From positions 2,634,448 through 2,698,447 of the forward strand of contig NZ_CP054475.1 of the NCBI RefSeq assembly GCF_025345565.1: DNA of 64,000 bases, given 5' to 3'. Position 1 is the first letter of the stretch; every line of letters starts with the position of its first letter. Below, in pieces: positions 1 through 27,018 of the stretch. The notes under the pieces were generated by a model. It saw only the letters and a program-made list of their open reading frames with translations, was not told the DNA's origin and did no database searches. Both the position numbers and the translations under genes were made by a program. This stretch comes from Thalassolituus hydrocarboniclasticus. GTDB lineage: Bacteria; Pseudomonadota; Gammaproteobacteria; Pseudomonadales; Oceanobacteraceae.

Positions 1-76
1 CCTGTGCCAGATAATGCTCGGCCAGAACTTTCCCCAAACGCCGGCCGGCTCCGGTAATCAGAATACGTTTGCTCAT
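1..76 (-). CDS. SDR-family reductase, N-terminal fragment only (runs off window)
   Basis: Only the first 25 residues are inside the window. The reverse-strand ATG is at 74-76 and the frame stays open to base 1. The fragment shows an N-terminal Rossmann nucleotide-binding start (ILITGAGRRLG), typical of short-chain dehydrogenases. This wording resembles the start of FolM-type dihydromonapterin reductases, but 25 residues cannot separate FolM from other SDRs. The gene downstream on the same strand lies outside the window. The upstream acylase gene is separated from it by an intrinsic terminator, so the SDR is probably a separate transcription unit. Confidence 0.7.
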   Translation of the reverse strand, partial: MSKRILITGAGRRLGKVLAEHYLAQ

Positions 77-100
77 GATTTTTCCACGCACAAAAACAAC

Positions 101-124
101 AAAGCCGGTACGTTAACCGGCTTT
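101..124 (-). terminator. Intrinsic terminator of the penicillin acylase gene
   Basis: A 9-bp perfect stem (AAAGCCGGT / ACCGGCTTT) with a 6-nt loop lies just past the stop of the acylase gene. On the reverse strand it is followed by a T-rich stretch (TTGTTTTTG). Confidence 0.75.
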
Positions 125-150
125 ATTGCAGCTGTCACGAATGTGTGAAA

Positions 151-2772
151 TTACTCTGCGTGCAGTACACGTTCATAACTGAAGTGCGCTCTGACTTTTT
201 CCGCATCGTTAAAAGGTAAATTGCGGTTTTTACGCGACAGCCACAGCTGAATACCGTCGTCGTAATGCGGCGATGCCGGATTACCGGACTGCCCGCCGGC
301 GACAATCAGATTCAGCGGTTCCGGCTGGCTGAAATCGACGATCATACGCATCGCCGGAATATTCCAGACGGCATAATCCGAGCCTAAATCGTAGCCTGCC
401 ACATTCAGCGTATTACGGTTACCACCAGCCGGATACGGTCCGCGGTCGGTATATTCCGCCAGACTTTCCACCGCCGCGGCTTTCAGACCGGAGAGAAACG
501 GCAGCATATGCGTGGTTTCAGTTTGCCAGTGATAAAACGCCAGATCTCCCCAGCGCCACTGGCTGTCATCACTACCCAATTGCTGTTGCAGATAAGGCCA
601 GGTCGCCGCCAGTGCGCGGGCAATAATCTGCCCCGGTAATTCGTTATCAGCGGTATTGATATCATCCCAGAACGGTGCCCAGTTGCTGCCTTGTGTGCGC
701 CCAAGTAAATGATCCTGATAACCGGAATAAGCACGGCCATTCATCGCCAGAAAGGCCTGCCACAGCTGGCCGTCTTCCGGCCCCAATTCGTCCATAAAAA
801 TCGCACGGATCAGATTGTGTTCGAAGCCACCCCACACCGCCGCGCTGCGTGAGCCTTGCGCCATATCGCCGTCAAATGCACGGATAATCTGCAGCACGTT
901 CTCAGCATCAGCCTGCTGTGCCTGTGGTAAAGCTGCAATGCCATCGCGGATCATATTTTGCCACGCTTCAGACCCCCAGAGCTGCTGCACCTTGGCCACC
1001 AGAATATCGCGCCGGTCGGCCTGCATGGCTTCCATGCTGGCATAGTCGTGGCCACCGCCGTGCTGCGTCAGCATTTGCATAATGCGCTCGGAGCGTTCCG
1101 GGTAATACCAGGAACTGGTCAGGCGCGGGCTGTAATCAGCTGCCACCGTGCGGTTATTACCCGTGCCTGAATAACCGCTTTGCGGATTACGTGAACGCGG
1201 TGTATCGGCACCGCCCCAGTAACCCTGCCAGTCGTACTCGCCGGTCCAGCCAGGGCTTGGAAAATGGCCGCTTCCGGCTTTGCGTTTGGGATAATTCCCC
1301 GTCACCTGCCAGGCCACATTGTCTTTGTCACCATAAATCACGTTCAGATGAATAAAACCGACACCATTTAATGCCTGCTCAGCCTCATCCATGGTTTTGG
1401 CTTTACCCAGATTAAAAAAGGAATCGATGGTGTTATCCGGAAATTGCGCCGTCCAGCTTAATGCCAGACCGAATTCCGAGCTGGCCGGAATGGCGATCAT
1501 TTCGTGTTTAGGTTTGCCTTTAATTGCGGCATTCAGCAATGGTCCATGGCGTGTGGACTGCACTTCAATAGTGACCGGTTCTGCACCTTTAACCTGAATG
1601 GTTTCGCTGCGACTGCTGACCGGATACCACTGTTCCTGATACAGATATTCGGTTTTGCCATCGCGCTCGCGCAATTTCTCCAGAAACACATCCTGGGTAT
1701 CCGCCATCACCATGGTTTCACCCCAGCCAATATGGCCGTTGTAGCCGGCAACCAGTGCCGGAATGCCCGGCAAGGTAATGCCCACACCGCTGTATTCCGG
1801 GCTTTTTACCCCCATCAGCATCCAGGTCGACGGATGCGATAACAACAGGTGGGTATCGTTGGCGATCAGGGTCGCACCGGCGGCGGTTTTATCTTTATGC
1901 ACGCCCCAGTTATTGGAGGCGGCAATACCCTGACCGTTAATCCGCTTCAGCTTCTGCTCAACCGCGGCCAGATATTCCAGTTGCTCTTTAACAGCAACCA
2001 CCGGGCTTTCAGCGCCGGCCAAATCCACAGCGGCAAGCTTGTTGGCTTCTGCCAGGTCGATGGGTTCATCCGGATAAATCGGCGCCAGATACGCGGCTTT
2101 TTCGACACCCAGTTTTTCTGCCAGCTGCAGAAAGCCCAGCTCTTCATGCAGGTTAAAACCCACCCCCAGATTGAGCATCACAAACAAGCCCAGCGTGTTG
2201 GCGGGCTGCCAGGCTTCCGGCTGATAATCGTTAATCATCAGCTCCAGCGGCAGACGATCGCGGTGGCTGTTAATGTAAGCGTTCACCCCGGCGGCAAAGC
2301 CCGTCAGGTGTTGCTTCAGCTCCGGGCTTAATGCGGCATAGCGCTCTTCGATAATCTGCGGAATACCCAGGGTACGCATGTAGATATCCATATCCAGCGC
2401 GATATCGCCGGTCATCTCCGCCAGACGGCCACGCGCCAGCAGATTCATCGATACCATCTGCGCCAGACGGTCTTCTGCCATGGCATAGCCGATGCCGAAG
2501 GTCAGATCCTGCAGGCTTTGCGCCTCAATAAAAGGCACGCCGTAGTCATCGCGACGGATACTGACGTCTTCCTGCAGACCGCGAACCTGAACCACACCCA
2601 CAGCAGGATCAAGATTGCGCTCGCTGATCCAGTCAAACACCTGACCGCAGCCGGTTAAGGTTAATAAGGTGGTGGTTGCCAGAAACGGCAGAAACAAGGC
2701 CTGACGCAGACCTGAAAGCTTTTTATATTTTTTATTATTCACAGAGATACCCGTGCCGCAGTTGCGACTCAT
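151..2772 (-). CDS. Penicillin acylase family lipoprotein (Ntn hydrolase)
   Basis: The 873-aa product is an N-terminal-nucleophile amidohydrolase precursor of the penicillin G acylase/cephalosporin acylase/AHL acylase family. Such enzymes cleave an amide bond after autocatalytic removal of a linker between the alpha and beta chains. A hydrophobic stretch at about residues 21-41 ends in a lipobox (LTGC, Cys42), so membrane anchoring as a lipoprotein is predicted. The alpha chain would span about 55-270 and the beta chain would begin at Ser286 in the GIAASNNWGVH motif, the usual nucleophile context. The substrate is unknown: acyl-homoserine lactone, beta-lactam side chains and N-acyl amino acids are all possible. 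No clear Shine-Dalgarno precedes the ATG. An in-frame GTG at about 2742 would give a shorter, Lys-rich signal-peptide n-region and is a realistic alternative start. Confidence 0.88.
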   Translation of the reverse strand: MSRNCGTGISVNNKKYKKLSGLRQALFLPFLATTTLLTLTGCGQVFDWISERNLDPAVGVVQVRGLQEDVSIRRDDYGVPFIEAQSLQDLTFGIGYAMAEDRLAQMVSMNLLARGRLAEMTGDIALDMDIYMRTLGIPQIIEERYAALSPELKQHLTGFAAGVNAYINSHRDRLPLELMINDYQPEAWQPANTLGLFVMLNLGVGFNLHEELGFLQLAEKLGVEKAAYLAPIYPDEPIDLAEANKLAAVDLAGAESPVVAVKEQLEYLAAVEQKLKRINGQGIAASNNWGVHKDKTAAGATLIANDTHLLLSHPSTWMLMGVKSPEYSGVGITLPGIPALVAGYNGHIGWGETMVMADTQDVFLEKLRERDGKTEYLYQEQWYPVSSRSETIQVKGAEPVTIEVQSTRHGPLLNAAIKGKPKHEMIAIPASSEFGLALSWTAQFPDNTIDSFFNLGKAKTMDEAEQALNGVGFIHLNVIYGDKDNVAWQVTGNYPKRKAGSGHFPSPGWTGEYDWQGYWGGADTPRSRNPQSGYSGTGNNRTVAADYSPRLTSSWYYPERSERIMQMLTQHGGGHDYASMEAMQADRRDILVAKVQQLWGSEAWQNMIRDGIAALPQAQQADAENVLQIIRAFDGDMAQGSRSAAVWGGFEHNLIRAIFMDELGPEDGQLWQAFLAMNGRAYSGYQDHLLGRTQGSNWAPFWDDINTADNELPGQIIARALAATWPYLQQQLGSDDSQWRWGDLAFYHWQTETTHMLPFLSGLKAAAVESLAEYTDRGPYPAGGNRNTLNVAGYDLGSDYAVWNIPAMRMIVDFSQPEPLNLIVAGGQSGNPASPHYDDGIQLWLSRKNRNLPFNDAEKVRAHFSYERVLHAE

Positions 2773-2871
2773 AAGAAAAGGTGAGAACGCAGCGGATTAT
2801 GGCGGGCAGGCCAGAGAGCGAACAGGGACTTTTGTGCCAAACAGGCACTGAGTGAACTAAAGCCAAAAAAG

Positions 2872-2907
2872 CACAGACAGAAACACAGACAGAAACACAG
2901 ACAGAAA
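2872..2907. repeat. Three tandem copies of a 12-bp unit
   Basis: CACAGACAGAAA is repeated three times without a mismatch in the noncoding gap between the acylase start and the terminator of the next gene. It is upstream of the acylase promoter region. No function is evident; it is a simple-sequence array that could vary by slippage. Confidence 0.9.
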
Positions 2908-2930
2908 CAGATCCGGCAGACAATAAAAAA

Positions 2931-2956
2931 TCCGCCGGCTGTCACCACCCGGCGGA
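2931..2956 (-). terminator. Intrinsic terminator, FG-GAP lipoprotein copy 1
   Basis: The stem TCCGCCGG/CCGGCGGA is followed on the reverse strand by a T tract (ATTTTTTATT). The same element, with its flanks, recurs at 8215-8240 behind the second lipoprotein gene. Confidence 0.85.
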
Positions 2957-3021
2957 TTAGGTTTTTACAGGTCAGGCCAGCTCAGGCATTACACCACAAG
3001 CCGGCCTGCCAGCTAACGCGA

Positions 3022-5526
3022 TCAGTACAGATACACCGCGCCAGACCCTACAGCGTTGTTATTAGTTTGATCGCCATTAATACCGGTAGCGCTACTCGCT
3101 TCTTCTGACGCACCCACGGCCAGGGTCTGGCCATCCGCCGATAACGCGACCGAATTGCCAAAAAAGTCAAGTTCACCGGTATTCGAGGCCTTAATATAGG
3201 CCGGCTGCGCCCAGCCAGCCTCTGTGCGCTGAAACAGATACACCGCACCAGATCCAGGAGCAGCATCATCCATTTGCTCACCATTAATACCGGTTGCGCT
3301 GCTGCTTTCGACCGGAGCGCTTACCGCCAGGCTGTCGCCATCCGCCGATAAGGCGACTGCATGGCCAAAGTGATCGTCTCTGCCGGAATTAGAGGCCTTA
3401 ATATAAGCCTGCTGCGCCCAATTCAAATCGGTGCGCTGGAACAGATACACCGCACCTGCCCTATTAGCAATGTTATCAACCTGATCACCACCAACACCGG
3501 TTGCACTGCTGGCTTCACCCCAAGCGCCTACCGCCAAAGTAGAGCCATCAGCAGACAGTGCGAGGCTGCTGCCAAAATAGTCATCTGCATCGGTATTAGA
3601 AGCCTTAATATAGGCCAGCTGCGTCCAGCTCAAGTCGGTGCGCTGGAACATATACACCGCACCTGCGTATCTCAAACTGTCATCCGTCTCATCACCACCA
3701 ACACCGGTTGCACTGCTGGCTTCACGATAAGCGCCTACCGCCAGAGTGCTGCCATCGGCCGACAATGCGACTGAACTGCCAAACTCGTCTCCTTCCCCGG
3801 CATTCGAGGCCTTGATATAAGCCTGCTGTGCCCAGCTAAGGCCTGCACGCTGGAACATATACACCGCACCTACGCCTCCAGAACTGTTATCTGTCTCATC
3901 ACCACCAACACCGGTTGCGCTGCTGCGTTCACGGGGTGCACCCACCGCCAGGGTAAAACCGTCGGCCGATAACGCTAACGAACGGCCAAACTCATCGCCG
4001 GCATCCGTATTCGAAGCCTTGATATAAGCCTGCTGCGCCCAGCTCTCGCCTGTGCGCTGGAAAACATACACCGCTCCTGCATCGCGTGCAGCGTTATCCT
4101 GCTCAGCGCCAGCAGCATCCACGCCCCCGATGCTGCTGCCTTCATTAAAAGCGCCAACCGCCAGTATCGAGCCATCGTCTGACAATGCCAGACTGATGCC
4201 AAAGATGTCCCCTTCATCGGCATTCGAGGCTTTGATATAAGCCTGCTGTAGCCACTGGCCATGGGTCAGGCGGAACACATACACCGCACCGACGCTATAG
4301 CCACGGATATCTGACTGCTCAGCATCAATACCAGAGTTAAGGTTACTCTCCCCTGGCATACCTATCGCTAGCGTACTGCCATCGGCCGATAACGCTACGG
4401 CAGTGCCAAACCAACCAGCGGCATACCCGTCATCAGGATAATTCCATCCCCAATCAACCCGCGCGGCTTTAACATAGCCCACCGCGTCGGCCAGGCTTCC
4501 CTGGGCTGTTACTTCAGCGGAGGTGCGGCAGTCTTCATAACCATCTGACAGATTACAGGCCTGTAATCTGTAGCGGGCATTCACACGCAGAGGCAGAAAC
4601 ACCGAATGCTGATAGCCGGTTGTATCGGCGGGTAACGTCTGAATCTGGGTGAAATCCTGCTGGCCGTCCAGGCTTTCCAATAAGCGGTATTCGGTTTCTT
4701 CGGCAACATCCTGCCAGCTGAAACTGAAGGTTTTTGTCGCCGTCAACGACAGACTCAGTACCGGGTCCGCGGGAATAAAGCTCGCCTCTACCGTGCAGTC
4801 GGCCGTAATGGCCCCGGTGGTATAGGTGCTGCCCTGCAGCGTACCGTCACAGCCCGACACGCCATCAATGCGGTAACCATTGTCTGCTGTAATCTCAAAA
4901 CTGGTGGTGGTTTCGGTATCCACCACCTGTGCCGTGTCCGGGCTGATGCTGCCGCCTGCGCCAGCATTGACAGCAACGCGGTGAGTCCGCATAAAGCTGG
5001 CTTCTACCGTGCAGTCAGCCGTAATGGCTCCCGTGGTATAGGTGCTGCCCTGCAGCGTACCGTCACAGCCTGACACGCCATCAATGCGGTAGCCATTGTC
5101 TGCTGTAATCTCAAAACTGGTGGTGGTTTCGGTATCCACCACCTGTGCCGTGTCCGGGCTGATGCTGCCGCCTGCGCCAGCATTGACAGCAACGCGGTGA
5201 GTCCGCATAAAGCTGGCTTCTACCGTGCAGTCAGCCGTAATGGCTCCCGTGGTATAGGTGCTGCCCTGCAGCGTACCGTCACAGCCTGACACGCCATCAA
5301 TGCGGTAGCCATTGTCTGCTGTAATCTCAAAACTGGTGGTGGTTTCGGTATCCACCACCTGCGCCGTGTCCGGGCTGATGCTGCCGCCATTACCCGCTGA
5401 CGGAGTAACACTGAAACTCGGGTCGTCACTGCTGCTGCCGCCACCACAGGCCGATAACAACGCACTGACGAGCGTGATCTGAACCGCAGACGCGACAGAG
5501 CGCGCCTTAACATGCCTTTGATTCAT
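3022..5526 (-). CDS. Lipoprotein with InlB-type B-repeats, Fn3-like segment and 7-blade FG-GAP propeller (copy 1)
   Basis: The 834-aa product is a predicted surface or periplasmic lipoprotein: signal peptide, lipobox LLSAC with Cys27, then a Gly/Ser/Asp linker. Residues 39-250 are three 68-72-residue divergent InlB B-repeats (GGSISPDTAQ... GYRIDGVSGCDG ... ADCTVEASF), each with a Cys pair. About 251-345 resembles a fibronectin-III domain. Residues 351-834 contain seven units of about 69 residues with the signature FGxSxALSADGxTLAVGA ... GAVYxFQR, i.e. FG-GAP/integrin-alpha-type blades. Seven units suggest one closed seven-bladed propeller. The start at 5526 is chosen because AAAGGA lies 6 nt upstream and the paralogue starts at the same Met; the upstream ATG at 5562 is ignored. 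Binding or adhesion is plausible; no enzymatic motif is seen. Confidence 0.9.
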   Translation of the reverse strand: MNQRHVKARSVASAVQITLVSALLSACGGGSSSDDPSFSVTPSAGNGGSISPDTAQVVDTETTTSFEITADNGYRIDGVSGCDGTLQGSTYTTGAITADCTVEASFMRTHRVAVNAGAGGSISPDTAQVVDTETTTSFEITADNGYRIDGVSGCDGTLQGSTYTTGAITADCTVEASFMRTHRVAVNAGAGGSISPDTAQVVDTETTTSFEITADNGYRIDGVSGCDGTLQGSTYTTGAITADCTVEASFIPADPVLSLSLTATKTFSFSWQDVAEETEYRLLESLDGQQDFTQIQTLPADTTGYQHSVFLPLRVNARYRLQACNLSDGYEDCRTSAEVTAQGSLADAVGYVKAARVDWGWNYPDDGYAAGWFGTAVALSADGSTLAIGMPGESNLNSGIDAEQSDIRGYSVGAVYVFRLTHGQWLQQAYIKASNADEGDIFGISLALSDDGSILAVGAFNEGSSIGGVDAAGAEQDNAARDAGAVYVFQRTGESWAQQAYIKASNTDAGDEFGRSLALSADGFTLAVGAPRERSSATGVGGDETDNSSGGVGAVYMFQRAGLSWAQQAYIKASNAGEGDEFGSSVALSADGSTLAVGAYREASSATGVGGDETDDSLRYAGAVYMFQRTDLSWTQLAYIKASNTDADDYFGSSLALSADGSTLAVGAWGEASSATGVGGDQVDNIANRAGAVYLFQRTDLNWAQQAYIKASNSGRDDHFGHAVALSADGDSLAVSAPVESSSATGINGEQMDDAAPGSGAVYLFQRTEAGWAQPAYIKASNTGELDFFGNSVALSADGQTLAVGASEEASSATGINGDQTNNNAVGSGAVYLY
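4777..5412 (-). repeat. Three InlB-type B-repeats, 216-bp period
   Basis: Three coding repeats lie head to tail. The first two in reading order share almost all of their DNA sequence (one difference seen before they diverge at the N-terminal edge). The third differs by several synonymous changes. This looks like recent tandem duplication rather than protein-level conservation alone. Confidence 0.9.
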
Positions 5527-5569
5527 TCTATATCCTTTAGTATCCGCAAAAATTAATGGCACAAAAAAA

Positions 5570-5594
5570 CACGCTGTTTGCTATAAACAGCGTG
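5570..5594 (-). promoter_or_regulatory. Leader hairpin with U tract upstream of lipoprotein copy 1 (attenuator-like)
   Basis: A perfect 10-bp stem (CACGCTGTTT / AAACAGCGTG, 5-nt loop) lies 44-68 nt upstream of the start codon. On the reverse strand it is followed immediately by seven T residues, the form of an intrinsic terminator. A pairing-conserved version is in the copy-2 leader (10630-10652). Attenuation is inference; it could also stop antisense or read-through transcripts. Confidence 0.6.
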
Positions 5595-5869
5595 CGATAT
5601 CGGCACAAAAATGTTTTCTAATGATACAGATAACAACTGATATCTGACGGGCAAAAAATGCAATCAATCTTTCATTTTGTCTCAAATTACTCCGATTTCT
5701 CTGGTCATATAAGTGACATAAAGGAAACAAAAATAACCCGGGCAGAATATTCAAATAAAAACAGAAACAAAGCCTAAAAATACGAAAAACTCAAGTGTTC
5801 TTAACGATGAAAAGCGGCCAGATATAGCACCTGCAACCTTTAACTCTCCATCGTCAGTCACTTTAAAAC

Positions 5870-5884
5870 TGATAACCATTATCA
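5870..5884. promoter_or_regulatory. Candidate Fur box
   Basis: TGATAACCATTATCA fits the 7-1-7 Fur consensus (TGATAATnATTATCA) with one mismatch. It differs by one base from the candidate Fur box before feoA at 26970. It lies 226 bp before the regulator start and 344 bp before the divergent lipoprotein start, so which promoter it serves is not clear. Confidence 0.55.
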
Positions 5885-6109
5885 AATAAAGCTAATAAGA
5901 GGGGTGATCCTCTTGAATATTTCACAGTTTTACACAACACCTGACCAGTAAAATTAAAAATATCAACTAAATCTGTTTTTACTTTACAATATCCAATAGA
6001 ATGAAAAAAAAGTTAATTTCCCCAGGAAAATACCGGGGAAGAATAAAACAAGCCCTGAGCGCAAGCCTGATACCCGTCAAAGCAAGCACCCAAATCCTGA
6101 TCTTACGGA

Positions 6110-7063
6110 ATGGTTACCCAATTGTTTTCAGAAAATATTTATTTAAAGCCAAATGCCAGGTTATGTAAGAAAGTGTCAGCGTCACAGATCAACTTACACT
6201 TTCTTCATGGCTTTATTGGTTTTCAGGGCCATGCAGAAGATCTTTCCTTGTCTGACAGTCCATTTAATACAGGCATGTCTGTTGCGCTCATCCGGGTTAA
6301 TAACGGCCATCTGAAGCTTAATGACCAGCATCTTTTAACGGATAGGTTTTATTTATGTAATCTCCATGCTATCCGCCATATAAGCACTAATGAATGCTCT
6401 TTTTTTGGCATGCTGATTCCTGGCCTTCAGGTTGACCTCAATAGTCTCATTAACAGTAAGACCGTGATTCTGATGAATAACGATGACTGGCTGGAGAACA
6501 ACCTCTGCTTTGATCTGCATCAACTTTTTACTGCATTAAACGAGCAGGATTCACTGCGTGCAACAAGCATAAGTCAGATTATCAGCGGCTATCTTTTCGA
6601 GACGATTAACAGTGAACTCGAACAGAATGCCTGCGAAAAGAAACTAACAGATAGTTATTACAGACTACTTTCTTATATTGGCAGAAACCTGAATTCACGC
6701 AAGCTGGGCATCAACATGCTGACAGAGGCAACGTTTATGTCACGCGCGGGTATTTATCGTCTGACCAATCACTTCGGCGGAGCCATCGGGTTAATCAATC
6801 ATATGCGCTCAACACTCGCACTGATTGACATTCTGAATGAAGACCGGGCTGACATATCCTTCAAAGATGCATACCCTAACTATGGTTTCAGCTCTTACGG
6901 TTGCTTTCTTCGTGCTTTCAGAAAAATTCATGGTGTCCCTCCGGGTGACATCAGAAAAAACGGATTGAAGTCATTACATCAAGACAATGAATCCGGTCAA
7001 AGCCATGCCCAAAAACCGCGTTTCTATGCATGGTTCCGGAGCTATTTCATCTGGAATATATGA
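6110..7063 (+). CDS. AraC-family transcriptional regulator (first of coupled pair)
   Basis: The 317-aa product has a C-terminal region at about residues 190-285 that shows the two helix-turn-helix units of the AraC/XylS family. The conserved tail GFSSYGCFLRAFRKIHGVPPGDIR matches the second HTH and the family signature. The N-terminal 170 residues would be a cupin-like sensor or dimerisation domain but are poorly conserved to the eye. The start codon has only a weak upstream ACGGA. Its stop overlaps the next gene as ATGA, so the two regulators are probably co-translated. Codon and base composition are AT-richer than neighbouring genes, which suggests horizontal acquisition or xenogeneic silencing. 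The targets are likely the flanking lipoprotein genes; this is inferred from position only. Confidence 0.82.
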   Translation: MVTQLFSENIYLKPNARLCKKVSASQINLHFLHGFIGFQGHAEDLSLSDSPFNTGMSVALIRVNNGHLKLNDQHLLTDRFYLCNLHAIRHISTNECSFFGMLIPGLQVDLNSLINSKTVILMNNDDWLENNLCFDLHQLFTALNEQDSLRATSISQIISGYLFETINSELEQNACEKKLTDSYYRLLSYIGRNLNSRKLGINMLTEATFMSRAGIYRLTNHFGGAIGLINHMRSTLALIDILNEDRADISFKDAYPNYGFSSYGCFLRAFRKIHGVPPGDIRKNGLKSLHQDNESGQSHAQKPRFYAWFRSYFIWNI

Positions 7064-8037
7064 TGAAAAAGGATCTTTATTTTCAATATGCTATTGGTGG
7101 CAATCACTCTATGAGCAGCACAGAGGGCCAGTGGGATAAGGCTCTGTCTCCTTTTTTTAAAGTCCAGACAAAAATTAACCCGCATCCGCCCCCGGAGAAT
7201 CAGGCAGAAACCTGCACTACCGATGGAATGACCATTCTTTGCCTGGAAATACACCAGGAAGTATTGCTTCAATCTCAAATAAACGCATCGCTGCAAGAAA
7301 ATGCATCCGCTGTCTTAGTGTATACAGAGCAAGGCAGCGCAGAGTTGTTTACCTGCAGCCAGAACATAAAAATTAACTGCGGCGAGACATTTATTATTGA
7401 AAACAGCCAGCCTTTTATTCTTCGGGCTGACACATGTCGCCTGAGATTGGTGATATTTAACCTGCACCTTATATCGGCCATTTATCCACTGATAAAAATG
7501 ACGCGCATCATGCCGTTAAGCCATAACAATAAAGCAGAACTATTGCAGCACTTTATTCGGGATGAGTTTGACCGGTTCCGGAATCTGAACAGTTCTGGTT
7601 ATACAATACGACAGGAAACAGCCAGCCATATTCTGCGGTTAATGGTACAGGATCAATATCTGGCCAGAATCCGCAACAGCCATGAAAAAACCATGGCGGT
7701 GCAAAAATACTTAGCTGCAAATATATTTCAGCCCGACATCACCGCAGCCACCCTGTGTAAAGAACTCGATATATCGACTTACGAACTGCAGAAAATTATG
7801 CAACCTCACGGTGGCCTGAAGCAGTACATCAACAAGGCCAGAATTGAGGAATTTTGCAGAAAACTACACCAAGGTATCGACTACTCTTACAACCTTTATG
7901 CGCTGTCACTTGATCTGGGATTCAGGTCTGAATCAGCCTTCCGGCGGATATTTAAAAGTGTAACCGGCGTCGTGCCGAGTAAGTTCTTAAGTGATATCCA
8001 TAACCGCATTAACCCGTCTCCAGGTCATTCTGAGTAA
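7060..8037 (+). CDS. AraC-family transcriptional regulator (second of coupled pair)
   Basis: Translation probably begins at the ATG at 7060, which overlaps the preceding stop (ATGA); a second ATG follows at 7063. The longer frame starting at 7030 lies within the first regulator and is less likely. The 325-aa protein has an N-terminal sensor-like domain (about 60-170, with a cupin-like run ending in beta-strands) and a C-terminal AraC DNA-binding domain at about 215-315. That domain contains LCKELDISTYELQKIM (HTH 1) and LDLGFRSESAFRRIFK (HTH 2), then GVVPSKF. It is a paralogue of, not identical to, its partner. Possible hetero-oligomer formation with the partner is speculation. No terminator was recognised before the convergent lipoprotein copy 2. 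Confidence 0.85.
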   Translation: MMKKDLYFQYAIGGNHSMSSTEGQWDKALSPFFKVQTKINPHPPPENQAETCTTDGMTILCLEIHQEVLLQSQINASLQENASAVLVYTEQGSAELFTCSQNIKINCGETFIIENSQPFILRADTCRLRLVIFNLHLISAIYPLIKMTRIMPLSHNNKAELLQHFIRDEFDRFRNLNSSGYTIRQETASHILRLMVQDQYLARIRNSHEKTMAVQKYLAANIFQPDITAATLCKELDISTYELQKIMQPHGGLKQYINKARIEEFCRKLHQGIDYSYNLYALSLDLGFRSESAFRRIFKSVTGVVPSKFLSDIHNRINPSPGHSE

Positions 8038-8214
8038 GACAGAATCCGCAATCATCGTTATTAATACAATCAAGCCTGCAGCATCCATGGTTTATATTTT
8101 CAGCAATATATCCAGCGGAGCTGAACGCGCAAGCCTGAGAAAAATGGCACATATACCAGCAAACGAATAAAGGCTTTTTTGCCAGACAAAGCATTAACGG
8201 CGGAGAATAAAAAA

Positions 8215-8240
8215 TCCGCCGGCTGTCACCACCCGGCGGA
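8215..8240 (-). terminator. Intrinsic terminator, FG-GAP lipoprotein copy 2
   Basis: The stem TCCGCCGG/CCGGCGGA is preceded on the forward strand by an A tract, giving a T tract on the reverse strand. It is a near-exact duplicate of 2931-2956. It could also stop forward transcripts from the AraC pair (GTTTTTAC follows). Confidence 0.85.
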
Positions 8241-8305
8241 TTAGGTTTTTACAGGTCAGGCCAACTCAGGCATTACACCACAAGCCGGCCTGCCAGCTAA
8301 CGCGA

Positions 8306-10585
8306 TCAGTACAGATACACCGCGCCAGACCCTACAGCGTTGTTATTAGTTTGATCGCCATTAACACCGGTAGCGCTACTCGCTTCTAGTGGCGCCCCCA
8401 CAGCCAGAGTCTGGCCATCCGCGGATAAGGCAACCGATCGGCCAAACGTGTCACCGTAACCGGTATTGGAGGCTTTGATATAGGCCGGCTGCGCCCAGCC
8501 AGCCTCTGTGCGCTGAAACAGATACACCGCACCAGATTCATAAGCGGCATCATCCATTTGCTCACCATTAATACCGGCTGCACTGCTCCTTTCGCCCGGA
8601 GCGCTTACCGCCAGGCTGTCGCCATCCGCCGATAAGGCGACGGCATAGCCAAAGTTATCTCTCGTGCCGGTATTAGAGGCCTTAAGATAGGCCTGCTGCG
8701 CCCAGTGCAAGCCGGTACGCTGGAACACATACACCGCACCTGCTTTAGAAGCACTGTTGTCCTCCTGCCCTGCACCAACACCGGCTGCGCTGCTGCCTTC
8801 ATTCTGAGCGCCAACCGCCAGAGTGCTGCCATCAGCCGATAATGCGACACTCGAGCCAAAATAGTCATTTGCACCGGTATTAGAAGCCTTAATATAAGCC
8901 TGCTGAGCCCAGGCTTGGTCTGCACGCAGAAACACATACACCGCACCTGCGTATGTCAAACTGTCATCCGTCTCATCACCACCAACACCGGTTGCACTGC
9001 TGGCTTCAGCCAAAGCGCTGACCGCCAGAGTGCTGCCATCGGCCGACAGCGCCAGGCTGATGCCAAACTGATCTTTTACCCCGGTATTCGAGGCTTTGAT
9101 GTAAGCCTGTTGTGTCCAGCTAAGGCCTGCACGCTGGAACATATATATCGCACCCGCTAAATAGGCACTGTTATCCGCCTGATCACCGTCAACACCGGTT
9201 GCACTGCTGCTTTCAAAAAAAGCGCCTACCGCCAGGGTGCTGCCATCGGCCGATAACGCTAACGAACGGCCAAACCGATCACCCGCCCCAGTATTCGAGG
9301 CTTTTATATAGGCCTGCTGCGCCCAACCAGCGCCTGAGTACTGAAACACATACACCGCACCTGCGTAAGGAGTACTGTTATCTGCCTGAACACCGTTAAC
9401 ACCGGTCGCGCTGCTGCCTTCATTAAAAGCGCCAACCGCCAGTGTCGAGCCATCGCCTGACAATGCCAGACTGCTGCCAAAGCTGTCCAATTCATCGGCA
9501 TTCGAGGCTTTGATATAAGCCTGCTGCAGCCACTGCCCATGGATAAGGCGGAACACATACACAGCACCGACACTATTGCCACGGATATCTGACTGCTCCG
9601 CATCAATGCCAGAGTTAAGGTTGGTCTCCTCTGGCATACCTACCGCCAGCGTACTGCCATCGGCCGATAGCGCTACAGCCAATCCAAACTGACCTTCGGC
9701 AGACCTATAGGCAGGATCATTCAAGCCCCAATCAATCCGCGCTGCTTTAACATAACCCACCGCGTCGGTCAGGCTTCCCTGGGCTGTTACTTCAGCAGAG
9801 GTGCGGCAGTCTTCATAGCCATCTGACAGATTACAGGCCTGTAATCTGTAGCGGGCATTCACACGCTGGGGCAGAAACACCGAATACTGATAACTGGTTG
9901 TATCGGCGGGTAACGTCTGAATCTGGGTGAAATCCTGCTGGCCGTCCAGGCTTTCCAGCAAACGGTATTCGGTTTCTTCGGCAACATCCTGCCAGCTGAA
10001 ACTGAAGGTTTTAGTCGCCGCCAACGACAGACTCAGTACCGGGTCCGCGGGAATAAAGCTCGCCTCTATCGTGCAGTCGGCCGTAATGGCCCCGGTGGTA
10101 TAGGTGCTGCCCTGCAGCGCACCGTCACAGCCCGACACGCCATCAATGCGGTAACCATTGTCTGCTGTAATCTCAAAACTGGTGGTGGTTTCGGTATCCA
10201 CCACCTGTGCCGTGTCCGGGCTGATGCTGCCGCCTGCGCCAGCATTGACAGCAACGCGGTGAGTCCGCATAAAGCTGGCTTCTACCGTACAGTCAGCCGT
10301 AATGGCCCCGGTGGTATAGGTGCTGCCCTGCAGCGTACCGTCACAGCCTGACACGTCATCAATGCGGTAGCCACTCTCGGCCATAATGTCGAAACGGGTG
10401 GTCTCACCTTTATTCAACACCTGCGCCGTGTCCGGGCTGATGCTGCCGCCATTACCCGCTGACGGAGTAACACTGAAGCGCGGGTCGTCACTGCTGCTGC
10501 CGCCACAGGCCGATAACAACGCACTGACGAGCGTGACCTGAACCGCAGACGCGACAGAGCGCGCCTTAACATGCCTTTGATTCAT
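8306..10585 (-). CDS. Lipoprotein with InlB-type B-repeats, Fn3-like segment and 7-blade FG-GAP propeller (copy 2)
   Basis: The 759-aa paralogue of the 3022-5526 product has the same architecture: signal peptide with lipobox LLSAC (Cys27), two rather than three B-repeats (about 38-177), an Fn3-like segment, and seven FG-GAP units (about 278-759). The last blade, stop codon, trailer and terminator are almost identical in DNA to copy 1. The first B-repeat (SPDTAQVLNKGETTRFDIM) and the tips of individual blades differ. Variation concentrates between the GA...E and the GAVY strands, the loop segment of each blade, as expected for a ligand-binding face. The ATG has the same AAAGGA ribosome binding site. 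No function beyond adhesion or binding can be assigned. Confidence 0.9.
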   Translation of the reverse strand: MNQRHVKARSVASAVQVTLVSALLSACGGSSSDDPRFSVTPSAGNGGSISPDTAQVLNKGETTRFDIMAESGYRIDDVSGCDGTLQGSTYTTGAITADCTVEASFMRTHRVAVNAGAGGSISPDTAQVVDTETTTSFEITADNGYRIDGVSGCDGALQGSTYTTGAITADCTIEASFIPADPVLSLSLAATKTFSFSWQDVAEETEYRLLESLDGQQDFTQIQTLPADTTSYQYSVFLPQRVNARYRLQACNLSDGYEDCRTSAEVTAQGSLTDAVGYVKAARIDWGLNDPAYRSAEGQFGLAVALSADGSTLAVGMPEETNLNSGIDAEQSDIRGNSVGAVYVFRLIHGQWLQQAYIKASNADELDSFGSSLALSGDGSTLAVGAFNEGSSATGVNGVQADNSTPYAGAVYVFQYSGAGWAQQAYIKASNTGAGDRFGRSLALSADGSTLAVGAFFESSSATGVDGDQADNSAYLAGAIYMFQRAGLSWTQQAYIKASNTGVKDQFGISLALSADGSTLAVSALAEASSATGVGGDETDDSLTYAGAVYVFLRADQAWAQQAYIKASNTGANDYFGSSVALSADGSTLAVGAQNEGSSAAGVGAGQEDNSASKAGAVYVFQRTGLHWAQQAYLKASNTGTRDNFGYAVALSADGDSLAVSAPGERSSAAGINGEQMDDAAYESGAVYLFQRTEAGWAQPAYIKASNTGYGDTFGRSVALSADGQTLAVGAPLEASSATGVNGDQTNNNAVGSGAVYLY
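10055..10474 (-). repeat. Two InlB-type B-repeats (216-bp period)
   Basis: The C-terminal repeat is nearly identical to the third repeat of the paralogue. The N-terminal one has diverged, with one repeat fewer than copy 1. The copy-number difference indicates unequal exchange within the array. Confidence 0.85.
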
Positions 10586-10951
10586 TCTATATCCTTTAGT
10601 ATCCGCAAAAATCGATGGCGCACAAAAGCACGCCGTTTGCGATTAACAGCGCTCAAGATCCACCAAAAGTTGGGTAATGATACAGAGAACAACAGGAGCC
10701 TGACGGGCAAAAACCGCGATATGGCTTTCAATTTGTCTCAACCTGCCGGCAGGGTTGTTACCGGTCTGAAGTTTCGCAACAGACTGATGGCAGCAGGCAC
10801 ATCTGCCCTGCGGCGCTGCGGCAATAAGGGCAGGCTGAATAAAGTGTTCGCGGATACGTAAAACGAAAACAATCATGGCAGCATCATCCGTCGCGGACAT
10901 GGCTAACGCTGTGACATAAAAGATGAGGAATTCGCGCGACATTCAGGCAAT
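10586..10951. other. Leader and promoter region of lipoprotein copy 2; no gene seen
   Basis: The first 155 bases or so match the copy-1 leader in blocks (TAATGATACAGA, CTGACGGGCAAAAA, TTTGTCTCAA) separated by diverged sequence. This pattern is expected if the blocks are promoter or operator elements. The remainder up to the tRNA terminator shows no supported gene. Confidence 0.6.
10630..10652 (-). promoter_or_regulatory. Leader hairpin upstream of lipoprotein copy 2
   Basis: The DNA arms are imperfect, but the RNA read from the reverse strand (GCGCUGUU / AACGGCGU) pairs over 8 bp using G-U wobbles and is followed by a short U run. It sits at the same place as the perfect hairpin of copy 1, so the structure, not the sequence, seems conserved. 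Confidence 0.5.
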
Positions 10952-10952
10952 A

Positions 10953-10984
10953 AAAAAGCCCGAATGCGAACATTCGGGCTTTTT
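10953..10984 (-). terminator. Intrinsic terminator of the tRNA-fMet operon
   Basis: A 14-bp perfect stem of A/T flank plus GCCCGAATG/CATTCGGGC with a CGAA tetraloop lies 10 nt beyond the 3' end of the second tRNA. A run of T follows on the reverse strand. Confidence 0.9.
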
Positions 10985-10993
10985 CATCAATTT

Positions 10994-11070
<77 letters not shown>

Positions 11071-11115
11071 ACAATTGCTTCACTACTTTCTGACGTTACA
11101 ACCAACAGAAGCGGT

Positions 11116-11192
<77 letters not shown>

Positions 11193-11205
11193 TCAGAGGC
11201 TGCGA

Positions 11206-11234
11206 ATAATACGGATGCCCCCTTGTGCTGTCAA
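11206..11234 (-). promoter_or_regulatory. Sigma-70 promoter of the tRNA-fMet operon
   Basis: On the reverse strand TTGACA (11229-11234) and TATTAT (11206-11211) are separated by exactly 17 bp. The discriminator is GC-rich (TCGCAGCC), typical of stable-RNA promoters under stringent control. The tRNA begins 13 nt after the -10 element. Confidence 0.85.
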
Positions 11235-11371
11235 GCCTAACATTTTGTTTTTTAGGTATTTTTCCCGCAATGACCGGGAATTTACAGAAAAGTTGCATCA
11301 TCGTCTGGCGTGTATGGAATACAGGTGGTACGTTATCTGAACAAAAAATAACAACAATAAAAATCGAGCAT

Positions 11372-12424
11372 ATGAGTTCGCATCCGACCAATACTTTGAC
11401 AACGGCGGCTTTGCAGCCCTTGTTGCGTTTGTTGGAAAGCAAAGGCTTCTCCGGCATGGACCTGCTGTCACCGGGCCATGAGGCCAGAACCGAGCATCTT
11501 TCCAGCCAGCGCATGTCCATCAGCCAGTTTGACCGGCTGCTGGAACAGGCCAGTAAACTGCTTAACGAACCTGCCATCGGCCTTGCCGCCGGACAGCATC
11601 TCGACCTGCCCAGCTTTTATCTGCTGGGGTTCCTGTTGAGCGGTTGCCAGACTGGCCGGGAAGCCCTGACCATTCTGCGTCGTTACTACTCGCTGATCAG
11701 TGATACCCGTTCGCCTGACCTGTTTGTCGGTAATGAAAGCATTAAAGTGCTTTACTATGTTGCCGAAGGCAGTGCCTTTGGCAGTCATGCCCGCAGCGAG
11801 TTTATCGCCACCAGCATTCATACCGCCGGCAAGGCCTTTGGCGGCAGTTACTATCAGGTACAGGGGGTTGGCTTCCGCTTTCCGCCACCGTCCTACCGTG
11901 ACCGGCTGGAGCAGTTCTTCGGTATTCCGGTTCAGTACAATCAGCCACATAACTGGATATCGTTTTCCGGCAAGTTACTGGATAAGCCATTGGCGCAGGC
12001 AAACCCGGAGTTATTCAACTCTCTGCGTCGTCAGGCTGAAGTAGCAACAACCCGTTTCGGCCAGTTGCAGGCGTTCAGCCGTAAGGTGATGCATATTCTG
12101 TATCAGTGGCCGGACTCCATCCCGATCACCAAAGAAGCCGTTGCCGACCTGCTGAGCACCAGCAGCCGTACCCTGACCCGGCGCCTGCAGGAAGAAAACT
12201 GCCAGTTCTCTTCCCTGTTGCGTGACGTACGCCTGGAGAAGGCCAAACAGGCACTGGAGCGCGGTCATACCGATGTACAGCAGCTGGCCATTGAGCTGGG
12301 CTTTTCTGACCGTCGGGGGTTTGAGCGGGCGTTCAAGCAATGGACCGGTGAAACTCCGGCAGCCTATCGGCGCAATTGTCGCTCCCGCAGTGAAGTGGTT
12401 ACCGAAATGGCCGAGGCCGATTAA
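11372..12424 (+). CDS. AraC-family regulator, OruR/ArgR-like (AraC arabinose-binding-type N domain)
   Basis: The 350-aa product has an N-terminal domain (about 20-210) that matches the sensor type found in OruR-like regulators: ...LPSFYLLGFLLSGCQTGREAL... and the FGIPVQYNQPHN region. The C-terminal AraC HTH spans about 235-335 (SSRTLTRRLQEE, then LAIELGFSDRRGFERAFKQW and TGETPAAYR). The ATG at 11372 is preferred because it opens directly into the conserved domain. The upstream ATG at 11225 would overlap the tRNA promoter and adds no family sequence. The Shine-Dalgarno is weak. It is unlike the AraC pair at 6110-8037. The effector and regulon cannot be read from the sequence. Confidence 0.88.
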   Translation: MSSHPTNTLTTAALQPLLRLLESKGFSGMDLLSPGHEARTEHLSSQRMSISQFDRLLEQASKLLNEPAIGLAAGQHLDLPSFYLLGFLLSGCQTGREALTILRRYYSLISDTRSPDLFVGNESIKVLYYVAEGSAFGSHARSEFIATSIHTAGKAFGGSYYQVQGVGFRFPPPSYRDRLEQFFGIPVQYNQPHNWISFSGKLLDKPLAQANPELFNSLRRQAEVATTRFGQLQAFSRKVMHILYQWPDSIPITKEAVADLLSTSSRTLTRRLQEENCQFSSLLRDVRLEKAKQALERGHTDVQQLAIELGFSDRRGFERAFKQWTGETPAAYRRNCRSRSEVVTEMAEAD

Positions 12425-12442
12425 CGGCTGATCAACAGCTCA

Positions 12443-12473
12443 AAAAAAAAGCGGCCATTGGCCGCTTTTTTTT
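12443..12473. terminator. Bidirectional terminator between convergent genes
   Basis: A GCGGCC-ATT-GGCCGC hairpin is flanked by eight A residues on one side and eight T on the other. It serves the AraC gene on the forward strand and the reverse-strand gene at 12496. Confidence 0.92.
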
Positions 12474-12495
12474 ATGAACTGCTATTTCCGTCTGA

Positions 12496-12951
12496 CTACC
12501 AGTCACTGGCGGACAGTGCCGCCCTGACGGTACGCATCTTTTCGGACTCCTCCAATGCGATCAGGTTTTCAAACAGCTGCCGCGAATCGTCCGTTGTCGC
12601 TTCGCTGAGCATCTGCCGGTACAACCCGATCAGGTAGTCATCAATTTTCAGTGCTACCCGGGCTAACTCATCCACCGAAATATCCGGATGCAGCTCACGA
12701 CAGCCTTTCAGGGCTTCGCTGATGGAACCTGGTTCAAACTGATGCCACTCAGAGAGTACCTTCTGGCTGATATGCTCCTGCATACTGACCATTGATTTCG
12801 CCAGCGTATCTTCATGGGCTGCCAGCAACTGCAGCATCATATCGACCCGCTCGCGCTGCGTCTGATCGCGTAATTGCTGATACAGATTGCGCGCGTGCTC
12901 ATGTAAGCGGCGGCTGTATTCGAGTACGTCTTTGACCGTGGAGTAACTCAT
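12496..12951 (-). CDS. Small all-helical protein, ferritin-like/rubrerythrin-like fold (hypothetical)
   Basis: The 151-aa product is Glu/His/Gln-rich and predicted fully helical, without a signal peptide or membrane segment. Helices such as VDMMLQLLAAHEDTLAKSM and ENLIALEESEKMRTVRAAL resemble the Glu-x-x-His pattern of ferritin-like bundles, but a complete di-iron site was not confirmed. A good ribosome binding site (AGGAAG, 7 nt before the ATG) supports the start. It shares a terminator with the convergent AraC gene and no operon partner is apparent. The function is not recognised; an oxidative-stress or regulatory role would be a guess. Confidence 0.75.
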   Translation of the reverse strand: MSYSTVKDVLEYSRRLHEHARNLYQQLRDQTQRERVDMMLQLLAAHEDTLAKSMVSMQEHISQKVLSEWHQFEPGSISEALKGCRELHPDISVDELARVALKIDDYLIGLYRQMLSEATTDDSRQLFENLIALEESEKMRTVRAALSASDW

Positions 12952-13119
12952 ATCTCTGCTTCCTGTTCAAAGGCTCTGGCTCAACGTTCCGGCTTCAAAG
13001 ACCCCTGCTGTCCTCAGACGCTATGGCCTGAGGGCATATACACAGTGGATAACTACAGCATAGCGTTAGCCGCTGTATACGCCATTGCGCAGGATCAAGC
13101 AGAGCAGCCTGCGCAGGCT

Positions 13120-13674
13120 TTATTCGTCATCACCGGATTCAGCAAACTGGTCCGCCAGCTGCTGACGGAATGGACGTACGGCGGATTTATCCTGTTCGCT
13201 GACGTTTTCCACCGCACGCATCATCATCAGTGAGGCGCTCATCATTTGTTCCATCATCATTTTTTGCTCAGCAGGCATGCCTTCTGCCTGACGGATCTGT
13301 TCGAGCTGAGCTTCAAGCTGTGACAGACTGACCTGTTCGTTTTCCATTTCCAGCGCCATATAGCCCATGGTCACCCGGCGGGAAACTTCAGCCCAGTGTT
13401 CAATGTTTTTATAACCGCCCGCTTTTACCTGCTTGCTGAAATCATCATATAAGCCGGCCGCCTTCAGTTGCTCAATGCCTTTATTAAACATGGCATCAAT
13501 ACTGGTTTCGCTGCCGCTGAAATCTTCTTCCGGCAACTGATCTTCATGCTGATCCAGCCAGTTTTCGAGCGCTGGCATGGCTTCCATCCAGTGTTTTACA
13601 TCTTTTTCTGTCAGATCAGCGGCCATTGCCAGTGGTGCCAATAAGCTGAACAACAACGTCATAACGATGCGCAT
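13120..13674 (-). CDS. Secreted/periplasmic helical protein, hypothetical
   Basis: The 184-aa product has a clear signal peptide (MRIVMTLLFSLLAPLAMA, cleavage likely at AMA-AD). The mature part is acidic and mostly helical, with an unusually Met-rich stretch at about 134-155 (EQKMMMEQMMSASLMMM). That stretch might bind metal such as copper or simply pack as a hydrophobic helix. GGAG precedes the ATG by 7 nt. It ends in a very acidic tail. The family is not recognised. The closest upstream gene on the same strand is the methyltransferase at 13724, 49 bp away, so co-transcription is possible. Confidence 0.72.
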   Translation of the reverse strand: MRIVMTLLFSLLAPLAMAADLTEKDVKHWMEAMPALENWLDQHEDQLPEEDFSGSETSIDAMFNKGIEQLKAAGLYDDFSKQVKAGGYKNIEHWAEVSRRVTMGYMALEMENEQVSLSQLEAQLEQIRQAEGMPAEQKMMMEQMMSASLMMMRAVENVSEQDKSAVRPFRQQLADQFAESGDDE

Positions 13675-13723
13675 GAGTATCTCCCTGAGAGTGTTTATTA
13701 AAGCGTTATTATTGATAAGGCGG

Positions 13724-14389
13724 TTACGTTAGTCGAGATTGACCGGCGCGGCAATAAATCTCAACCTCCACCGCCTCATCAAAATCACCAATGGCGGGAA
13801 GTGTCGAACTGACCATGGAGTGCAGGCAATCCAGCGCAACAAAATCCGGTGCAACAAAGCGGCTTTCGGCCAGAATCCAGTCGGGAATACTCAGCATCAG
13901 CTGCTTAAGATCGGCACTGGAGCTGATGTCGTAGAGCACATCACTGGCCAGCAGCAGGTCGACCTGTGGCCACTCACCTTTTACCGGTAAAACCTCCACC
14001 CCGTTCAGGGCTGCATTTTCGGCTGCAGCCTGCAGAGCATTTGCGTCCAGATCGGCAACCCAGACTTCCGCTGCTCCGGCCTTAGCTGCGGCGATGCCAA
14101 CCAACCCTGAGCCACAGCCAAAATCCAGCACCTTCTTGCCGGCAACCGCCTGAGGGTTAGCCACAATCCATTGCGCCAGAGCACGCCCGCCCGCCCAGGC
14201 AAAGGCCCAGTACGGCAGACGCTGCCAGAAAGCACCGATGGCCTGAGTATCCAGAGCCAATTCACTGTCTGGCAGACTGAGCAACCACAGGGTTAACTGC
14301 TCTTGCATGAGCTTTTCCATAACAAGCTGAGCATCAGGCAGTATCAATGCCTGTTGCAACTGTGTTGGCGCTGAAGTATCGGTTGGCAT
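13724..14389 (-). CDS. Class I SAM-dependent methyltransferase, ETFB-lysine-methyltransferase/Nnt1-like
   Basis: The 221-aa product carries SAM-binding motif I VLDFGCGSGLVGIAAA (about residue 90), the acidic loop VADLDANAL, and motif IV LLASDVLYD. The W-rich entry PYWAFAWAGGRALAQWI before motif I is typical of the METTL20/ETFBKMT/METTL18 group, which methylates protein Lys or His. It is a clear paralogue of the gene at 21344-22024. The bacterial substrate would be a protein such as ETF-beta by family analogy, unproven. Start: the ATG at 14389 is used; an in-frame TTG at 14398 lies nearer an AGG and is possible. It lies next to mltC on the same strand with a 54-bp gap. Confidence 0.82.
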   Translation of the reverse strand: MPTDTSAPTQLQQALILPDAQLVMEKLMQEQLTLWLLSLPDSELALDTQAIGAFWQRLPYWAFAWAGGRALAQWIVANPQAVAGKKVLDFGCGSGLVGIAAAKAGAAEVWVADLDANALQAAAENAALNGVEVLPVKGEWPQVDLLLASDVLYDISSSADLKQLMLSIPDWILAESRFVAPDFVALDCLHSMVSSTLPAIGDFDEAVEVEIYCRAGQSRLT

Positions 14390-14443
14390 AACGTACAAAA
14401 AACCTGTTTTTTGAAATATTGCTGTGTAAAAAGCAGATGACGC

Positions 14444-15529: not shown

Positions 15530-15538
15530 AAAAAACAC

Positions 15539-15559
15539 GGGCAGCAAAGATTGCTGCCC
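15539..15559 (-). terminator. Intrinsic terminator between the DUF1329 gene and mltC
   Basis: GGGCAGCAA-AGA-TTGCTGCCC is a 9-bp stem followed on the reverse strand by GTGTTTTTTG. The mltC start lies directly after it, so mltC may depend on read-through or on a promoter within the upstream gene. Confidence 0.8.
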
Positions 15560-15584
15560 AGTGTAATCGCCATACCGCTGAATG

Positions 15585-26650: not shown

Positions 26651-27018
26651 TACTTAACCTCAGTGCGTTAACGGCATAACCAAAAGATTGATATCTGCAG
26701 GTGAGATATCAATACTAAAAACAGGGAATTATCACGGACTATTACGGCAAGCACCGTACAGTTCAGGGATATTATCTACACGGCGATTATAACGGCGCAG
26801 ATCCATCTTAAACAATAAATAAAATTCAATATATAAATGACAACAGACTGTTTTATAAATATACACCTATCGCAAAGGAACTTATTCAATAAATCGCTAT
26901 AAATAGCCGGATTTTGTCATGGAGCAACGGAAGCGCCGAATAAGCATGTTGAGCCCTTGTACTATCAAATGATAAACATTATCATCTTTTCTGTTTATTT
27001 CCTTCCCGCCGGATCAGC
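26651..27018. other. AT-rich divergent promoter region, MvaT-like gene/feoAB
   Basis: The 368-bp gap holds the Fur box at 26970-26984 near feoA. It otherwise shows AT-rich sequence with no supported gene. Confidence 0.7.
26970..26984. promoter_or_regulatory. Fur box upstream of feoAB
   Basis: TGATAAACATTATCA is one mismatch from the 7-1-7 Fur consensus. It lies 35 bp before the feoA start, where iron-replete Fur would block transcription. It is nearly identical to the box at 5870. Confidence 0.8.

Follow-up and report, generated by a model that had tools for sequence, protein, structure and literature searches.

Two lipoprotein genes stand around two AraC-type regulator genes in the genome of Thalassolituus hydrocarboniclasticus (one contig, 4.07 Mb, completeness 100). 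Do these four genes form a working unit, in which the regulators serve the lipoproteins, or do they only lie side by side? A first-pass annotation of the window (the whole stretch of 64,000 nucleotides analysed here) had proposed a self-contained surface-protein module: alternative binding proteins with two dedicated regulators, in an arrangement not described before. The reading that we prefer, and hold to be rather probable, is a lineage-specific insertion of surface-binding lipoprotein genes together with an AraC pair that is probably iron-responsive.

The locus and its empty sites

The four-gene layout was confirmed: lipoprotein genes A and B, both on the minus strand, flank two AraC-type genes, both on the plus strand. 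The features are as follows, in window positions.

2859-10941, no strand: inserted segment (blastn edges 2842 and 10946, with empty-site alignment; limits good to ~20 bases)
2914-5690, minus: duplicated segment, copy A, with terminator, gene and leader (repeat search)
2923-2958, minus: intrinsic-terminator-like stem 3′ of lipoprotein A (same stem 3′ of B near 8209-8242)
3022-5526, minus: lipoprotein A, 834 aa (ORF, Pfam, start common with B)
5569-5595, minus: terminator-like hairpin in the leader of A, ahead of the start codon (z -2.7)
5609-5685, minus: conserved leader block of A, putatively promoter-like (repeat search)
5870-5884, no strand: Fur-box-like palindrome TGATAACCATTATCA, upstream of AraC1
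6110-7063, plus: AraC1, 317 aa, AraC/XylS-type (ORF, Pfam)
7060-8037, plus: AraC2, 325 aa, AraC/XylS-type (ORF, Pfam)
8198-10745, minus: duplicated segment, copy B, with terminator, gene and leader (repeat search)
8306-10585, minus: lipoprotein B, 759 aa (ORF, Pfam, AlphaFold model, PDB fold match)
10665-10741, minus: conserved leader block of B, putatively promoter-like (repeat search)

As judged from sequence comparison, the block from ~2859 to ~10941 (~8.1 kb) is a lineage-specific accessory insertion between an acylase gene (151-2772) and the terminator of the tRNA-Met locus. Eight genomes of the same genus were compared, one per species, and the insert is absent from all four in which the acylase gene adjoins the tRNA-Met locus. 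In two of these (G002 and G006) the flanks that end at the blastn edges lie 16-18 bases apart, and the alignment of the junction extends to ~2859 (left side) and ~10941 (right side). In G005 the acylase gene is followed by tRNA-Met without the insert, and an extra tRNA 3′ fragment is present. In G008 the acylase gene adjoins the same terminator without the insert, followed by only the last bases of tRNA-Met; the DNA beyond this remnant has no match to window positions 1-16000. Another element seems to have entered tRNA-Met there, at a junction that looks like that of an integrase-driven island. Of the other four genomes, three lack an acylase match (G001, G004, G007), and in G003 the acylase gene is separated by ~60 kb from the regulator gene next to the tRNA. 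The insertion status of the block is not visible from the window sequence alone; it came from this comparison with sister genomes.

Like tRNA-associated genomic islands, the insert is accessory DNA beside a tRNA gene, tRNA-Met. What sets it apart is that no integrase was found in it and no tRNA 3′ fragment at its far (left) end, and an integrase-driven tRNA-Met island was ruled out for it on these grounds. The Pfam search for integrases and transposases covered the four main ORFs and seven others of at least 90 aa and found none; the seven have no Pfam match at all. The propeller part of B is matched in G004 and G007 only among the eight genomes, and its B-repeat part alone in G002, G003 and G008; G001, G005 and G006 have no match to B. 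Plasmid records were searched with AraC2 and B, giving 9 and 26 matches. Not one of these covers more than 80% of its query, identity is under 60% throughout, and no source for the insert was seen. FG-GAP genes do occur on plasmids.

The four genes are tightly packed and absent together from the sister genomes, and therefore they arrived or arose together. To that extent the proposed self-contained module stands, as one physical unit. This counts against a reading that we think possible though on the unlikely side: that an unrelated AraC pair was carried in, or enclosed by the duplication of the lipoprotein gene, and regulates elsewhere, for example iron-related genes.

The lipoproteins and their duplication

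Lipoprotein A consists of a lipobox signal peptide, three B-repeats, an Fn3-like domain and seven FG-GAP_2 blades; B has the same architecture with two B-repeats. The paralogues lie in the same orientation and are 84% identical in amino acid sequence by protein alignment, and in this, as in the seven blades, the B-repeats and the Fn3-like segment, the first-pass annotation was right. Pfam reports seven FG-GAP_2 (PF14312) stretches in each protein, with E-values of 6.6e-47 and 2.3e-49 and scores of 157.9 and 165.8 bits, both above the cut-off of 23. It also reports three B-repeat (Flg_new_2) stretches in A and none in B; 300-base windows over the two units of B give 96% and 65% identity to the units of A, and the proteins align across the region. 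The start of A is most likely the ATG at 5526, common with B, and not the GTG at 5562. In both proteins a lipobox, LLSAC followed by G, was read by eye, and AlphaFold2 predicts an N-terminal helix in B. The sorting rule for such lipoproteins would direct them to the outer membrane.

B was modelled with AlphaFold2 on a 40-sequence alignment. Mean pLDDT is 84 and mostly exceeds 90 from residue 300 onward; confidence is low for the N-terminal 60 residues and for 105-131. The repeated strands of the model agree with FG-GAP_2 propeller membership. The top Foldseek match in the PDB is integrin alpha 4wk0_A (E 1.2e-10; TM 0.39 by query, 0.62 by target), with further integrins interspersed with WD40-type propellers at lower ranks; fibronectin type III chains also match, with low TM-scores. 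By sequence search of the PDB no convincing solved relative was found (best E 0.6). From the model, the C-terminal half of A and B would be an integrin-alpha-like seven-bladed propeller behind an Fn3/B-repeat stalk. Seven repeats and an integrin alpha fold match are what bacterial FG-GAP_2 propellers of the integrin-alpha-like kind have; A and B differ from the plain form by the lipobox and by the stalk of Fn3-like domain and B-repeats. Such propellers are widespread: of 274 genomes sampled from the class, 57 carry FG-GAP_2 above cut-off. On domains, propeller model and fold match, A and B look like surface binding proteins, as had been suggested. Vibrio cholerae Bap1, with four FG-GAP repeats, is likewise an exported FG-GAP-repeat protein, a matrix protein that binds outer-membrane vesicles (OMVs) through OmpT; it binds other surface molecules, and we liken it to A and B by description only, from the part of the source available (PMC3789753).

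The homologous DNA of the two copies runs from a common terminator (2914 in A, 8198 in B) through the gene to ~160 nt of leader (5685 and 10741), and no further. The matched segments are 91% identical at both ends, and the duplication is far above chance. Every blade of A has its nearest relative in the B blade of the same number, at 79-94% DNA identity; pairs with different numbers are at 63-77%. The blades are thus collinear, and the propeller was therefore already in place when the whole gene was duplicated. This contrasts with other propellers, whose blades, as far as the source was available, were amplified afresh repeatedly (PMC9218822).

Divergence is uneven along the gene. Across 107 codons, made up of the signal peptide with its linker and of the last B-repeat, no synonymous difference occurs, where ~17 are expected; the Poisson chance at the mean rate, ~6e-8, is optimistic, the segments having been picked with the alignment in view. 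Elsewhere Ks is 0.13 (Fn3-like part), 0.20 (the other B-repeat) and 0.2-0.7 (blades). The pattern would be explained most simply by gene conversion across the 5′ part.

The copies could also be recombination partners for antigenic or ligand variation, which we rate highly improbable. It would suit the near-identical 5′ parts beside divergent blades, and the B-repeats within A, which are near-identical to each other. Against it, the collinear blades keep no trace of shuffling between copies, which was ruled out on that ground; Ka/Ks, 0.14-0.55 where defined, is not diversifying; direct repeats would also delete; and the comparison rests on one genome of the species.

The two leader blocks are 77% identical. 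The block has a TATCAT hexamer and, by eye, no good -35 box, and a promoter scan did not report the block of A; leaders of this kind, in which no -35 box can be recognised, would suit a promoter that depends on an activator. The leader hairpin, a candidate for attenuation, is stable in A only (z -0.6 in B). No known RNA was matched in the lipoprotein leaders by Rfam, even at E up to 1.

The AraC pair and a Fur-like site

The two regulator genes had been called opposed. They are opposed to the lipoprotein genes; with respect to each other they lie head to tail on the plus strand. The better start of AraC2 is the ATG at 7060, which overlaps the AraC1 stop (7061-7063) as ATGA. This overlap fits the translational coupling that the first-pass annotation had asserted, and an overlap does not in itself demonstrate coupling.

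AraC1 is identifiable mainly through a weak C-terminal HTH (HTH_18 25.5 bits, below the Pfam cut-off of 33.6) and has no recognised N-terminal domain; AraC2 scores 38.4 bits, above it. A local AraC profile finds both. Among NCBIfam models, AraC2 resembles FeaR across most of its length (50.7 bits against a cut-off of 199) and, in the HTH, the YSIRK-antigen regulator TIGR04094 (33.6 bits against 200), and is a member of neither family. Recent tandem duplication was ruled out as the origin of the pair, whose members have almost nothing in common beyond one 21-residue HTH stretch.

GC content is 42 and 44% in the AraC genes (GC3 45 and 49%), compared with 54-58% in seven other genes of the window (GC3 55-64%) and 56-57% in the lipoprotein genes. 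No orthologue of AraC1 or AraC2 was found in 93 genomes beyond the genome itself, none of AraC1 when 369 genomes from the class were searched at E 1e-12, and none of AraC2 in a contig collection, by a search that finds close relatives only. The N-terminal part of AraC2 is without a match in 390 genomes of the order, bar one marginal 65-residue match in G402. Outside their own genome these searches returned at most general AraC-family matches. In composition the two genes look foreign, and within these searches they are orphans.

A and AraC1 are separated by 583 bp, and this gap holds a palindrome, TGATAACCATTATCA, ~225 bp from AraC1. It is one mismatch from the 7-1-7 Fur consensus, from which we name it Fur-like. 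In the window there are 8 matches at up to three mismatches, against 1.8 expected. Within one mismatch the pattern occurs at 7 places in the genome and its reversed control at 0; these counts followed the spotting of the site by eye, and the pattern used for the genome had been loosened by one letter so as to include it. Among 3000 dinucleotide shuffles of the 583-bp gap, 2 reach one mismatch.

Three of the other six places closely precede feoAB or TonB-receptor genes: one ~35 bp upstream of a feoA-like ORF (by eye) that feoB follows, and two, at 40 and 29 bp, upstream of TonB-receptor ORFs. Of the rest, one adjoins an ORF without a Pfam match, one is inside an RND-pump ORF, and one is at the start of an ORF without a Pfam match, beside a ceramidase gene. 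The site is farther from AraC1 than the 29-40 bp seen at the iron genes. The conserved leaders of A and B contain no Fur-like site, and the one found is near neither lipoprotein gene, which suits the idea of a pair that regulates elsewhere.

The preferred reading, of an insertion with a probably iron-responsive pair, would work as follows. The ~8.1-kb accessory insertion carries a duplicated outer-membrane-type lipoprotein gene and a low-GC operon of two AraC-type regulators. AraC1 and AraC2 would share a single coupled transcript that Fur probably represses under iron-replete conditions, and the conserved leaders of A and B may be their targets. The two lipoproteins would be exported and bind a surface or glycan ligand.

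Regulators and propellers in other genomes

Whether the regulators are dedicated bears on a stronger reading, in which the two regulators coevolved with the lipoproteins and switch between A and B, putative alternative adhesins. We regard it as doubtful. Speaking for it are the physical unit absent from relatives, the ATGA overlap, the sub-cut-off HTH match of AraC2 to the regulator family of YSIRK surface antigens, and leaders conserved to ~160 nt only, which would keep common operator sites. The AraC genes differ in GC from the lipoprotein genes and have no orthologues in the genomes searched, which tells against it.

Dedicated regulators were expected to recur beside FG-GAP genes in other genomes. 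The sample was 99 other FG-GAP stretches (1454 kb): 19 picked from places of B homologues, one of them in the same genome, with L092 left out as it was fetched for its AraC pair, and 80 that were the best 80 of 564 from the contig collection. The stretches are partly dependent (six are from G090, and two, L128 and L168, overlap each other), and flanks are complete to 3 kb on both sides in 64 of them. AraC-type genes were detected with the local profile.

Six AraC-type genes were found in the 1454 kb. Three of the 99 stretches have one within 3 kb of an FG-GAP gene, against ~5 expected from the density in the Thalassolituus genome (39 in 4.07 Mb, Pfam HTH_18); one of the three (L115) looks by eye like a DNA-repair protein with an AraC-type domain. 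An AraC pair beside the FG-GAP gene was found in none of the 99. At least two FG-GAP ORFs on the same strand occur in 11 stretches, and in none of these does an AraC-type gene stand between them. The Thalassolituus genome itself has a third FG-GAP paralogue, which has a different leader and no AraC-type neighbour. Duplicated FG-GAP neighbours are thus ordinary, and AraC neighbours are at background level. Lack of co-occurrence in related genomes was the outcome that the first-pass annotation had named as refuting its module, and it is what these counts gave. They do not support the claim of two dedicated regulators, and they favour chance neighbours. For this particular pair the test has little power, since AraC1 and AraC2 have no orthologue in the genomes searched.

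The literature searches gave no description of an FG-GAP lipoprotein pair around an AraC pair. One comparable couple was found, PA5032-PA5033 of Pseudomonas aeruginosa, and the claim that no system is known must be narrowed accordingly. In the parts of these sources available, PA5033 contains 6 or 7 repeats that resemble FG-GAP propellers, is 15.5-fold up in the biofilm secretome, and lies in a predicted operon with the AraC-like PA5032, a couple that the authors report in no other sequenced Pseudomonas species (PMC4334185). PA5033 has been tied to biofilm-specific antibiotic resistance (PMC3634840), and a different homology model makes it a lectin (PMC8516228). A further paper, likewise seen in part, describes the operon with a putative biofilm role for PA5032, and does not demonstrate direct control of PA5033 (PMC13086498).

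The likeness is of an AraC-like regulator gene adjacent to one that encodes an exported FG-GAP-like repeat protein, confined to one species of its genus (PMC4334185), and of a protein more abundant in biofilm, where the authors suspect iron limitation (PMC4334185, PMC3634840, PMC13086498, PMC8516228). PA5032-PA5033 differs in having one propeller gene and one regulator without duplication, and is likened by description only, from partial sources. With PA5033 up in biofilm, this precedent somewhat favours the dedicated-regulator view (PMC4334185, PMC3634840).

Carried furthest, these observations would give an orphan-type AraC pair, Fur-repressed and triggered by iron starvation, that acts on A and B through a common operator block: a self-contained surface-binding system with two ligand specificities, gained in one insertion and, with PA5032-PA5033, an example of recurrent lineage-confined couples of AraC regulator and propeller. 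We consider this quite improbable as a whole. The more modest reading preferred here starts from what is observed, namely the architecture, the unevenly diverged duplication, the empty sites, and the composition and orphan status of the AraC pair. The parts of the locus are all of known kinds, and its anatomy is real and lineage-specific. A regulatory role of the pair for A and B is possible, and the genome comparison does not support it.

Of the new leads on the locus, the most useful are the Fur-like site and the precedent of PA5032-PA5033. Without the iron link, the locus is one more ordinary example of how accessory surface genes duplicate and diverge. If the link is true, it would tie integrin-like bacterial propellers to nutrient limitation, and the locus would be a small, deletable one in which to test what such propellers bind.

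FG-GAP genes and an AraC-type pair outside the insert

The genome that carries A and B, the paralogous FG-GAP_2 lipoprotein genes of the ~8.1-kb insert, also has a third lipoprotein-like gene of this type:

L073:8936-10999, third FG-GAP_2 lipoprotein-like gene

It shares 45-47% identity with A and B, and its leader differs from theirs. Pfam found no B-repeat in it, and an AraC-type gene is absent from the 19-kb L073 stretch around it. Elsewhere, an Acidovorax facilis contig has four consecutive FG-GAP ORFs on the same strand (L154:7827-16247). In a relative (G043), AraC-type genes are neighbours on the same strand (L092:1290-4077), and no FG-GAP match was found on that 7.2-kb contig.

Left flank of the insert and the feo genes

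Window 151-2772, penicillin-amidase family acylase
Window 2872-2909, tandem repeat at the insert's left end (12 bp, CACAGACAGAAA; 3.2 perfect copies)
Window 26970-26984, Fur-box-like site, ~35 bp upstream of a feoA-like ORF, which is followed by feoB

The acylase, which lies beside the insert, matches PvdQ below the cut-off; G001, G004 and G007, three genomes of the same genus, gave no match to it.

tRNA-Met locus in sister genomes

The corresponding tRNA-Met locus of G008 (L051:1351-1420, L062:2730-2806) seems to have been entered by other DNA, which has no match to window 1-16000; the contigs extend ~36 kb (L051) and ~20 kb (L062) past their respective junctions. In G005, an additional 3′ fragment of tRNA-Met, accompanied by a repeated terminator, lies next to the intact tRNAs (L053:4281-4298), possibly as a scar left by an earlier integration.
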